A program made the position numbers and the translations under genes. Under the pieces are notes generated by a model. That model had not been told where the DNA came from and did not search any database. It saw only the letters and a program-made list of their open reading frames with translations. Shown here one piece after another: positions 6,726 to 12,217 of a stretch of DNA of 64,000 nucleotides. Numbering within the stretch: the stretch's first letter is position 1; the number at the start of each line of letters is the position of its first letter. Origin of the DNA: Bacteroidales bacterium. GTDB lineage: Bacteria; Bacteroidota; Bacteroidia; Bacteroidales; JAIOZK01. The stretch spans positions 62,001-126,000 of the forward strand of contig JAIOZK010000005.1 in the NCBI GenBank assembly GCA_021740625.1. Direction: 5' to 3'.

Positions 6726-8087
6726 ATGGCCAATAAACCTTCCATCCCCAAAGGTACACGCGACTTTTCACCGCAGGAGATGATGCGACGAAATTATATT
6801 TTTGATACCATCAAGGAAGTTTTTAAAAAGTATGGTTATCAGCCCATCGAAACACCTGCCATGGAAAATCTCAGTACGCTGCTTGGTAAATATGGTGATG
6901 AGGGCGACCGCTTATTGTTTAAAATTTTGAACTCAGGGGATTTCCTCAAGAAAACACGCAGTGCAGATTTTGATGATCTTTCCAGGCTTGCATTGAAAAT
7001 ATCTGAGAAAGGCTTGCGCTACGATCTTACCGTACCCTTTGCCCGTTACGTTGTTCAAAATCAGCATGACATCAGTTTCCCGTTCAAGCGCTATCAAATA
7101 CAGCCTGTTTGGCGTGCTGATAAACCGCAGAAGGGACGTTACCGCGAATTTTTTCAATGCGATGTAGACGTGATCGGGAGCCGGTCAATGTTGAATGAGG
7201 TGGAGCTGATCCAGATCATCGATGAAGTTTTTGGCAAATTAGGTGTAGCCTGTGAAATCAAACTGAACAACCGCAAGATCCTGGCGGGTATCGCAGAAGT
7301 GATCGGGGAAAAGGACAAGATCACGGAAATTACGGTTGCCATCGACAAACTGGATAAAATAGGACTTGAAAAGGTTAATCAGGAATTACAGGACAAAGGG
7401 GTAAGCAGAGAAGCCATAGAGAGATTGCAGCCCATCCTGATGCTGGAAGGACTGCTCAAGGAAAAGTTTCCCAAACTCATGGAAATTCTGAAGGATTCGG
7501 AAACAGGGATGAAAGGTTTGAATGAGCTTATGTCGGTCATGCATCATTTAAAAGACCTCAACCTGAATACCAAATGGAACCTGGATCTTACCCTGGCCCG
7601 CGGACTGGATTATTATACCGGGGCCATCATCGAAGTGGTGGCCAAAGATGTAAAGATCGGTAGTATTTGCGGAGGAGGACGCTACGATGACCTGACCGGA
7701 ATATTCGGCCTTCCGGATGTTTCCGGTGTGGGGATTTCCTTCGGGGCCGACCGCATCTATGATGTGATGATGGAAAAAGAGCTATTCCCGGAAGAAACAG
7801 AAGCCAGTACACAGGTCATGTTTGTAAATTTTGGTGATGAAGAAGCAAAATATTGTTTGCCGCTTGTTAGCCAATTGAGGGAGGCCGGCATACCGACAGA
7901 ATTGTTTCCAGATGCTGCCAAAATGAAAAAACAAATGAATTATGCCAACAAGAATAATATACCTTATGTAATACTTGTGGGTTCTGAGGAAATGAAGTCC
8001 GGTGAATTGAGTTTGAAAAATATGAAAAGCGGTGAGCAACAAAAAATATCTGCCAACTCCCTGACCGGTTTTTTTATGAATAAATGA
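6726..8087 (+). CDS. hisS: Histidyl-tRNA synthetase
   Basis: 453 aa class II aminoacyl-tRNA synthetase that charges tRNA-His. Seen in order: the N-terminal KGTRDFSP motif (9-16), motif 2 with [15 protein letters not shown], the histidine-specific signature [15 protein letters not shown], a GGGRYDDL loop, motif 3 [14 protein letters not shown], and a C-terminal anticodon-binding domain. The length is normal for the family. Its 3' end overlaps the convergent thioredoxin-like gene by 14 bases. Confidence 0.97.
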
Positions 8088-9686: not shown

Positions 9687-11210
9687 ATGACTTATATTAT
9701 CAAAGGAAGTGGACTCAGAATAGAAGATGTGGTGAATGTTGCCCGCCATAATGAAAAAGTAGAGCTTGATCCAGAAGCTTTGGAAAGAATGAAGAAATGC
9801 AGGGCCATGCTGGAAGAAAAAATTCAGGCCGGTGAGATCATGTATGGTGTGAACACAGGGATTGGAGAATTTTCGGAAGTTGTGCTGAATGATGAGCAGG
9901 TCAAAGATTTTCAGAAGTACCTGATCTATAACCATGCTGCGGGAATTGGCGATCCCATGCCCATCGAATGGGTGAGGGCCGCCATGCTGGGCCGTATCAA
10001 TGTGCATGCACACGGTAACTCGGGTATGAGGCCGGTGATCACGCAAACCCTGGTCGAGATGCTCAACAAAGGTGTGACCCCCTGGGTTTGTACCAAAGGA
10101 TCGGTAGGTGCTTGCGGTGACCTGGCACCCATGTCACAGATCGCACTGCTGATGCTTGGAGAAGGAAAAGCCTATTTTGAAGGTGAATTGTATGAGGGAA
10201 AAGTGGCTTTTGAAAAAGCTGGCATTGAGGTTCCGGGTTTAAAAGCCAGGGACGGACTTGCCACCATCAATGGTTCCAATGTATTAACTGCCATGAGCGC
10301 TCTTTTCCTGTATGATGCTAACAACTGGTTGAAGCAGGCTGAGATCGCAGCAGCCATGTCGCTGGAAGCACTCAAGGCAAATATGAAACCTTATACGGAA
10401 AAGCTTCATGCAGCAAGGGGATTCAGTGGTGCTGTCAGAAGTGCGAAAGCGATCAACAAGCTGGTGAGTGGCGGAGACCTGAAAGAACAAAGAATAAAAT
10501 GCAAGGTGCAGGATGCATATTCCATGCGTTCGACACCCCAGGTGATCGGTACTGCCCATGATGCGCTGGCTTATGCCAGATCACAGGTTGAGATCGAATT
10601 GAATGGAGTAGGGGACAATCCGGTTTTCTTCCCGGATGAAAACCTGCAATTGTCTGGTGCTAACTTTCAGGGATCACCTGTCGCATTGCCCATGGATATG
10701 GCGGGAGCAGCCATTACCATGATCAGCGTGATGTCGGAAAGAAGGATGAACAGGCTGAACAATCCTGCTTTGAGTGTAGGACTGCCTGCATTTCTGACCA
10801 AAGGAGCCGGAATGTTTTCCGGTTTGATGCTGAGCCAGTATACAGCAGATATGCAAATCGTGGAACAGAGGATATTATCTGCTCCGGCTTCCATTCAGTC
10901 CATTCCGGCGGCAGCCGACCAGGAAGATTTTGTTTCCATGGGAATGAACACGGCCCTGAAAAATAACCAGATCCTCGACAATGCATACGGAGTGCTCGGC
11001 ATTGAGTTTATGGCTGCGGCACAGGCCCTTGATTTTAGGGATTATGAATTTGGCAGGGGTGTTAAGAAAGCCAGGGAAATCATCCGCAGGTACGTGGAAT
11101 TCCTGGATGTTGACAGACCTCTTTATAATGATCACAACGCGATGAAGGATCTGGTGAAACGTTGTGAGATCCTGGAAGAAGTTGAAAAGGAAGTGGGTAG
11201 TTTGGAATAA
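9687..11210 (+). CDS. hutH: Histidine ammonia-lyase (aromatic amino acid lyase) with Ala-Cys-Gly MIO triad
   Basis: 507 aa MIO-type lyase that would convert L-histidine to urocanate and ammonia, the first step of histidine degradation. Residues matching Pseudomonas HAL fall in register: Tyr53 (MYGVNTG), His83 (YNHAAG), Asn195 (TINGSN), then QDAYSMR with Tyr278 and Arg281, and a Glu in ADQEDFVSMG that favours histidine over phenylalanine or tyrosine. The cofactor-forming triad at 142-144 reads Ala-Cys-Gly (codons GCT TGC GGT) instead of Ala-Ser-Gly. No hutU, hutI or hutG is nearby, so another aromatic substrate remains possible. It is monocistronic with its own -7 box. Confidence 0.85.
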   Translation: MTYIIKGSGLRIEDVVNVARHNEKVELDPEALERMKKCRAMLEEKIQAGEIMYGVNTGIGEFSEVVLNDEQVKDFQKYLIYNHAAGIGDPMPIEWVRAAMLGRINVHAHGNSGMRPVITQTLVEMLNKGVTPWVCTKGSVGACGDLAPMSQIALLMLGEGKAYFEGELYEGKVAFEKAGIEVPGLKARDGLATINGSNVLTAMSALFLYDANNWLKQAEIAAAMSLEALKANMKPYTEKLHAARGFSGAVRSAKAINKLVSGGDLKEQRIKCKVQDAYSMRSTPQVIGTAHDALAYARSQVEIELNGVGDNPVFFPDENLQLSGANFQGSPVALPMDMAGAAITMISVMSERRMNRLNNPALSVGLPAFLTKGAGMFSGLMLSQYTADMQIVEQRILSAPASIQSIPAAADQEDFVSMGMNTALKNNQILDNAYGVLGIEFMAAAQALDFRDYEFGRGVKKAREIIRRYVEFLDVDRPLYNDHNAMKDLVKRCEILEEVEKEVGSLE

Positions 11211-11362: not shown

Positions 11363-11794
11363 ATGGAAGAAATACAAACACCCGAAAATCAGCAACCCAG
11401 GAAAAGACCGGAGCTTTTAACCATTTTGTGCATTCTCACTTTTATTGGAAGTGGCCTGGGCACTTTTTCAAATCTTGTGCTGAGTCTCTCTTATGAAATG
11501 ATGCAGCAGATGGCCAGCTCGGGTGAGTTGAGCTTTCCCGGCATGGATGTGTATTTCGCCGTCCCCAGGTCGTATTACGTCGGGAGTTTCTTCTTTATGC
11601 TGGGATCCCTGCTGGGAGCCATTCAAATGTGGAAATTAAGGAGAATTGGGTTTCATATCTATACGGTATCGCAAATCCTGCTGTTGGTATTACCTTCCCT
11701 GTATGCGCAAAATTTTCCTTATCCCTATCTGAATGTACTGATTACCGCTGTTTTTATCTTGCTCTATGCCATGAATCTTAAACATATGTCTTAA
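11363..11794 (+). CDS. Four-helix membrane protein of unknown function, copy 1
   Basis: 143 aa with a hydrophilic N-terminus of about 18 residues and four predicted membrane segments (about 20-42, 68-85, 96-112, 118-138). It shares the layout and the motif MWKLRRIGFHIY between helices 2 and 3 with the next gene (MWQLRRMGFYLY), so the two are tandem paralogues. I do not recognise a named family and assign no function. It lies 152 bases after the ammonia-lyase gene and nine bases before its paralogue. Confidence 0.7.
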   Translation: MEEIQTPENQQPRKRPELLTILCILTFIGSGLGTFSNLVLSLSYEMMQQMASSGELSFPGMDVYFAVPRSYYVGSFFFMLGSLLGAIQMWKLRRIGFHIYTVSQILLLVLPSLYAQNFPYPYLNVLITAVFILLYAMNLKHMS

Positions 11795-11803
11795 ATTTGG
11801 CCT

Positions 11804-12217
11804 GTGGAATCAAATGAAAAAAACCAAAAAGGTTCAGGAATGCAGGAACGTCCGTTGTTCCTGTCATTGCTTTGCATTGTTTCATTTGTGTATTATGGGC
11901 TGCTTATTTTATTGTTTGCAGGTTCCCTCCTTTTCAGGGATTATTTTTTCGATGTGATTGCAAAATTCACGGAGGCTTCATTCCCTGAGGTCACCTATTA
12001 CCTGCTAGTCTCAATAGGACTGTTGCTTTTTACAACATCTTTTATCGGGACGATCAGGATGTGGCAGCTCAGGCGAATGGGTTTTTATCTTTATCTTCTG
12101 GCAAGCATCCTGACCATGCTCCTTTTGTTCTTATTTGTAAGCCTGAGCTTGTGGTTCCTTTTCAGCAGCATTTTTATGTTGTTTTGCTTCTGGTTATACG
12201 CAAAGCGCATGCAGTAA
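11804..12217 (+). CDS. Four-helix membrane protein of unknown function, copy 2
   Basis: 137 aa counted from a GTG at 11804; an ATG at 11840 (MQERPLFLS) is an alternative that removes a 12-residue hydrophilic tail. There are four membrane segments, with MWQLRRMGFYLY between helices 2 and 3 as in the preceding paralogue. The charged loop pattern suggests both termini are cytosolic. It starts nine bases after the first copy, probably in the same transcript. Function unknown. Confidence 0.68.
   Translation: MESNEKNQKGSGMQERPLFLSLLCIVSFVYYGLLILLFAGSLLFRDYFFDVIAKFTEASFPEVTYYLLVSIGLLLFTTSFIGTIRMWQLRRMGFYLYLLASILTMLLLFLFVSLSLWFLFSSIFMLFCFWLYAKRMQ

Follow-up and report, generated by a model that had tools for sequence, protein, structure and literature searches.

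A recurrent and very probably functional MIO triad variant, Ala-Cys-Gly, in a widespread histidine ammonia-lyase-like subfamily

The electrophilic methylidene-imidazolone (MIO) cofactor of the histidine ammonia-lyase (HAL) family arises from an Ala-Ser-Gly triad, through cyclisation and loss of water from the serine. What, then, is the meaning of a lyase gene that has cysteine at the serine position? Such a gene lies in the window, the stretch of 64,000 nucleotides from a Bacteroidales genome that was analysed here. The Ala-Ser-Gly triad is called strictly conserved in PMC3903478, and PMC11432326 describes it for HAL together with a Ser/His selectivity dyad. A study of how MIO enzymes evolved (PMC9002059) uses none of the terms ASG, Ala-Ser-Gly, tripeptide or cysteine in its main text, and a literature search that had most subscription journals outside its scope brought up no naturally occurring MIO enzyme with Ala-Cys-Gly. 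Here we present evidence that the cysteine triad is real and recurrent and, as far as sequence comparison can tell, a very probably functional variant. The gene and its diagnostic codons are as follows.

9687 to 11210, plus strand: histidine ammonia-lyase-like gene (PF00221), 507 amino acids, open reading frame from the ATG at 9687
9843 to 9845, plus strand: codon of Tyr53, the catalytic Tyr (Tyr in 209 of the 210 subfamily rows with a residue there)
9933 to 9935, plus strand: codon of His83, histidine-type pocket (His in 212 of 212 subfamily rows)
10110 to 10118, plus strand: Ala142-Cys143-Gly144 (GCT TGC GGT), in frame, aligned with the triad that forms MIO, Cys replacing Ser
10269 to 10271, plus strand: codon of Asn195 (Asn in 210 of 210 subfamily rows)
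10518 to 10529, plus strand: codons of Tyr278 to Arg281, the catalytic Tyr/Arg pair (Tyr in 204 of 205 and Arg in 204 of 204 subfamily rows)
10923 to 10925, plus strand: codon of Glu413 (Glu in 201 of 201 subfamily rows)

A preliminary description of this DNA had reported Ala-Cys-Gly at residues 142 to 144, with TGC encoding Cys143, and the frame from the ATG at 9687 bears this out; the range given there, 10107 to 10118, includes the triad but starts one codon early, 10107 to 10109 encoding Gly141. The subfamily profile aligns the triad with the Ala-Ser-Gly of Pseudomonas putida HAL (1gkm). Tyr278-Arg281 aligns with YSLR of the same enzyme, and Glu413 with its QED motif, the Glu of which we take to be Glu414.

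Profile searches place the protein firmly among the aromatic amino acid lyases (PF00221, 536.2 bits against a gathering score of 27.3, residues 10-467) and, more narrowly, within the NCBIfam histidine ammonia-lyase subfamily PRK09367 (532.1 bits, cut-off 524). It falls below the cut-off of the hutH equivalog TIGR01225 (508.2 against 539.15 bits), a model that all 47 members of set A1 match (matches, not scores against the cut-off), and far below that of the flexirubin tyrosine ammonia-lyase FlxA (NF053541, 323.6 against 700 bits). All of the HAL catalytic and pocket residues are present (Tyr53, His83, Asn195, the Tyr/Arg pair, Phe and Glu); the protein reads Ala-Cys-Gly where MIO enzymes are expected to have Ala-Ser-Gly, and Asn-His in place of the Ser-His selectivity dyad.

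Structural comparison was consistent with these assignments. In an AlphaFold model built with 47 subfamily sequences (mean pLDDT 89.9), the nearest solved fold was P. putida HAL (1gkj, TM 0.93, 32% identity). The P. putida HutH entries 1b8f and 1gkm, likewise similar in fold (TM 0.93), have in common with the window protein Tyr53, His83, Asn195, the Gln, the Tyr/Arg pair, the Phe and the Glu, as well as the triad flanks GSVG-A-x-G-DLAP; at 32-33% identity, the window protein differs by Cys for Ser in the triad and by Asn82, Met149, Gln151, Gln328 and Phe415. The best sequence match among solved structures was the HAL of Thermoplasma acidophilum (PDB 7tqr, E 8e-97, 36% identity, fold TM 0.90), whose triad appears in the chain as one modified residue X, the precursor residues not being displayed.

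How far the cysteine extends beyond this gene was addressed by protein searches. Among 247 genomes of the window's order, 190 had a lyase match and 83 of these, the window's genome included, carried a closely related gene (73-90% identity, not counting the window's own copy); the next matches listed were at most 38% identical. A search of 395 genomes of the phylum listed 32 further members at 65-79% identity to the window protein, all of them outside the window's class and none in other orders of that class. Triads were read in 110 of these 115 similarity-found members (81 of 83 and 29 of 32): residue 143 was Cys in 73, Ser in 37 and nothing else. In addition, one named genome collection was scanned with a degenerate motif pattern admitting Cys, Ser, Thr, Arg and Trp. 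At least 115 stretches matched, at least 104 of them at 50% identity or more to the window protein (Cys in 69 and Ser in 35 of the matches listed) and spread under at least 26 named phyla, archaeal bins included, although nearly all scan records are MAGs and binning errors may have misplaced some. More distant lyases accounted for 11 of the matches listed (10 Ser and one Cys, L209). Altogether, the 214 subfamily rows read, window included, comprise 142 Cys and 72 Ser, the latter encoded by 40 TCN and 32 AGY codons; removal of duplicates between samples leaves 136 Cys in 207 rows. Judged by its sequences, then, the subfamily is a distinct PF00221 group found in many bacterial phyla and in some archaeal MAGs.

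In two bins named archaea (L168 and L191) the copies share 80% and 82% identity with the window protein, the result of recent transfer or misbinning. A candidate member on a viral contig (L111) was a single pattern match with no open reading frame of 150 or more amino acids on that strand, and was rejected as a chance match. In plasmids, 858 records had a match, all below 60% identity and the best-ranked at 43%, so that no close subfamily member was found there.

Residues other than 143 define this subfamily, as the alignment indicates, and it contains both Cys and Ser at the triad. Against 79 other lyases (L320 was left out because it was misread in the alignment), the subfamily departs at six positions among the active-site neighbours. 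Of 212 subfamily rows, 198 have Asn at position 82 and 14 have Ser, which is the residue of 77 of the 79 others. Met occupies position 149 throughout the subfamily (214 of 214), as Leu does in all 79 others; at position 151, Gln (207 of 214) stands against His (72 of 79), and at 328, Gln (204 of 204) against His (79 of 79). Position 330 is Ser or Thr in 200 of 204 rows and Gln or Glu in all 79 others, and position 415 is Phe in 201 of 201 and His in 77 of 79, respectively. The Met149 signature is partly built in, because the degenerate scan pattern requires it; the 110 members that came from protein similarity show it without any such requirement. Common to both groups are Tyr53, His83, Asn195, Gln275, Tyr278, Arg281, Phe327 and Glu413, and across the 214 rows the triad neighbours and catalytic residues are invariant or almost so. 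The earlier statement that all other HAL residues are kept thus holds for Tyr53, His83, Asn195, Tyr278/Arg281 and Glu413 but not for Asn82, Met149, Gln151, Gln328, Ser/Thr330 and Phe415, which differ from the other lyases.

Outside the subfamily the picture is different. The 80 other PF00221 lyases of the phylum that were read, 34-42% identical to the window protein, have the same motifs but lack Cys in the triad, with 62 Ala-Ser-Gly, 18 Ser-Ser-Gly and no Cys. A motif search of the sequence flanking subfamily genes turned up another lyase in 15 of 81 order loci, with Ala-Ser-Gly in 15 of 15; this set, all from one phylum, overlaps the 80 by at least one, in G211. The possibility raised in the preliminary description, that many classical HALs carry Cys with nothing unusual about them, is therefore not what these lyases of the same phylum suggest. 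One exception comes from further afield: L209, at a contig end in an Oscillospiraceae bin, has Ala-Cys-Gly together with the classical HAL motifs QEDHVSM and NFHGEP, and since it is only 36% identical to the window protein and lies outside the subfamily, Cys may have an independent origin elsewhere. A second lyase type (L296-L314), 36-42% identical to the window protein, occurs within the phylum but not in genomes of the window's class, its triads being Ser-Ser-Gly rather than Ala-Ser-Gly in 18 of 19, some with Gln instead of Pro following the triad. In G636, G265 and G570 the subfamily gene has a lyase of about 40% identity next to it.

If the cysteine marked a lineage, as had been proposed, its carriers should group together in a tree. 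With residue 143 masked, a tree of 81 rows from the order sample (48 Cys, 33 Ser) gave at least 13 Cys/Ser changes (12 without the outgroup), where shuffled labels gave 25.9; its well-supported branches alone force one change. A single clade of the 48 Cys rows was rejected (AU p 0.0066), as was a single clade of the 33 Ser rows (AU p 0.0063). A wider tree of 178 of the then 183 subfamily rows, from which five short rows were dropped and the last 31 rows are absent, gave at least 30 changes, at least 10 of them forced by well-supported branches. Both trees were built quickly, have SH-aLRT as their sole branch support and contain some long branches. The most similar Cys and Ser members, L055 (TGT) and L061 (AGT), are 91% identical. 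These trees indicate that Cys and Ser are recurrently exchanged within the subfamily across many phyla, and the idea that the Cys triad defines a lineage has to be given up. Nothing else was seen to switch strongly with the cysteine: the best alignment column reached a Cramer's V of 0.39, uncorrected for kinship, and there was no tie between Cys and a second lyase in the genome (Fisher p 0.82).

Codon usage at residue 143 bears on the direction of these exchanges. In the 183-row set, the rows of which are related, AGY codons encode 27 of 62 serines at residue 143; over six columns in which Ser never varies, the figure is 77 of 1071. By parsimony a Cys ancestor is preferred, 39 steps against 41. 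In likelihood fits, allowing AGY and TCN to interchange directly, at the cost of two extra rates, gained 8.3 log units; the root state is then Cys at 0.78 and AGY at 0.22, while the stepwise model gives 0.47 and 0.53. Cys as an obligate bridge between the two Ser codon families, which was also considered, is not favoured by these fits. It is possible, though in our view rather doubtful, that Cys-type MIO is a widespread and ancient alternative formed via H2S loss, with Cys ancestral, Ser re-evolved many times, and maturation coupled to sulfur chemistry.

What the enzyme does is suggested by the genomes in which it occurs. In the window's genome this gene is the only PF00221 match; hutU is present (433 bits, cut-off 375), and hutI adjoins ftcD, both over cut-off. 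More broadly, hutI was over cut-off in 29 of the 30 subfamily genomes tested, out of 83. Over the 247 order genomes, urocanase was found in 33 of the 35 whose sole lyase match is the subfamily gene, in 45 of 48 with the subfamily gene and another lyase match, in 95 of the 107 whose lyases all lie outside the subfamily, and in 3 of the 57 without a lyase match. Divided by triad, the sole-lyase genomes with urocanase are 18 of 19 for Cys (the window's genome among them), 13 of 14 for Ser and 2 of 2 with the triad unread, so that the Cys form very likely supplies urocanate. Because hutU, hutI and ftcD accompany the sole PF00221 match and urocanase is so unevenly distributed (33 of 35 against 3 of 57), the window gene is most likely the histidine ammonia-lyase of the hut pathway, its MIO being derived from Ala-Cys-Gly with release of H2S; we put the probability of this reading at about 0.77.

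Several observations count against it. The score below the TIGR01225 cut-off and the Asn-His dyad are two of these, as are the two genomes that have the subfamily gene as sole lyase match and no urocanase match. In the window the lyase gene is not beside hut genes, and no hut gene besides lyases was recognised among the recurring neighbours of subfamily loci (Pfam names were available for the window only, and 14 loci lay outside the clustering). Further, 48 of the 83 subfamily genomes in the order carry another lyase match, and the two lyases may therefore divide substrates or conditions. These last genomes also speak for an alternative in which the subfamily acts on another imidazole substrate, such as a methylated or thiol histidine, its link to urocanase being indirect. 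The subfamily-specific Asn82, Gln151, Gln328 and Phe415 beside the active-site motifs fit such a role, as does the presence of the Treponema denticola ergothionase (PDB 6s7j, TM 0.92, 30% identity) among the nearest folds. We nevertheless consider this unlikely: His83 and Glu413 are invariant in the subfamily rows read, urocanase accompanies the gene in those 33 of 35 genomes, and the window genome's own urocanase passes hutU and falls far short of both thiourocanate hydratase cut-offs (357 against 880 and 310 against 930 bits).

For the preferred reading, a histidine ammonia-lyase with MIO derived from cysteine, the most likely route is that Ala-Cys-Gly cyclises autocatalytically as usual, the nitrogen of Gly144 attacking the carbonyl of Ala142 with loss of water. 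Elimination of the Cys side chain would then release H2S, in place of the water released from Ser, and the electrophilic ring that results would be the same methylidene-imidazolone; the mature enzyme would remove ammonia from histidine to yield urocanate. Substrate, MIO formation and H2S loss are what we infer for the window enzyme. Residue 143 is Cys or Ser in 110 of 110 similarity-found members, which is what the need for a beta-leaving group would predict, while a dead triad should drift to other residues. Rough dN/dS estimates, with dS near saturation in most pairs, were 0.022-0.104 in seven of eight Cys pairs (undefined in one) and 0.036-0.062 in four Ser pairs; a working MIO from Cys fits this low dN/dS, the restriction to Cys or Ser and the conserved pocket. 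The S143C mutant of P. putida HAL, as the preliminary description also says, reportedly remains active (Langer et al. 1994). The suggestion made there that a natural Cys could work is supported, the lyase being otherwise intact and very probably functional.

Alternatively, Cys members might not form a normal MIO, the cysteine staying a thiol or making a sulfur-containing ring variant with altered chemistry. Chemically, the thiol of Cys should be more nucleophilic than the hydroxyl of Ser and leaves as a different group, and the literature searched yielded no cofactor data and no assay, mass or crystal data for any natural Cys member, which also counts against the HAL reading. We regard this as very unlikely, since the two residues have replaced each other many times, no other column changes strongly in step with them, and urocanase accompanies both forms to a like extent, which suggests the same product. 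That the cysteine is a sequencing or assembly error or belongs to a decaying gene, a worry that the 52 contigs of the assembly might prompt, is refuted for practical purposes by the recurrence of this Cys in another genome of the genus (L003/L032, 90% identity), its presence in 142 of 214 subfamily rows, the open frames and the low dN/dS; because relatives in many phyla have swapped Cys and Ser repeatedly, it looks natural and working.

A large clade in which nature uses either Cys or Ser offers ready-made matched pairs for testing the role of the leaving group in maturation. For annotation, a motif that insists on Ser would overlook Cys-type enzymes or misclassify them.

A link between the Cys triad and oxygen sensitivity, also proposed earlier, found no backing: heme-copper oxidase, a weak proxy, was present in 27 of the 48 genomes with Cys and in 21 of the 32 with Ser (80 of the 81, G211 being left out; Fisher p 0.49). 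A pairing test for oxygen use on the tree had one supported pair only, too few to be of use.

Finally, the lyase gene has a recurrent upstream neighbour.

6726 to 8087, plus strand: histidyl-tRNA synthetase gene (PF13393), 1.6 kb upstream of the lyase

A gene of the histidyl-tRNA synthetase cluster lies upstream on the same strand as the lyase in 34 of the 71 order loci with enough upstream sequence. The 37 gaps measured between the two genes were below 0.6 kb in 20 cases and 1.3-4 kb in 17. This pairing, an association only, shows no tie to Cys (22 of 46 Cys loci, 12 of 25 Ser loci). In the window, thioredoxin-like and YCF48-like genes on the other strand lie between the two. The lyase gene is followed there by two small hydrophobic open reading frames without a Pfam match (11363-11794 and 11804-12217); a cluster of similar small open reading frames follows the lyase in 31 loci, the membership of the two in the window being judged by eye.
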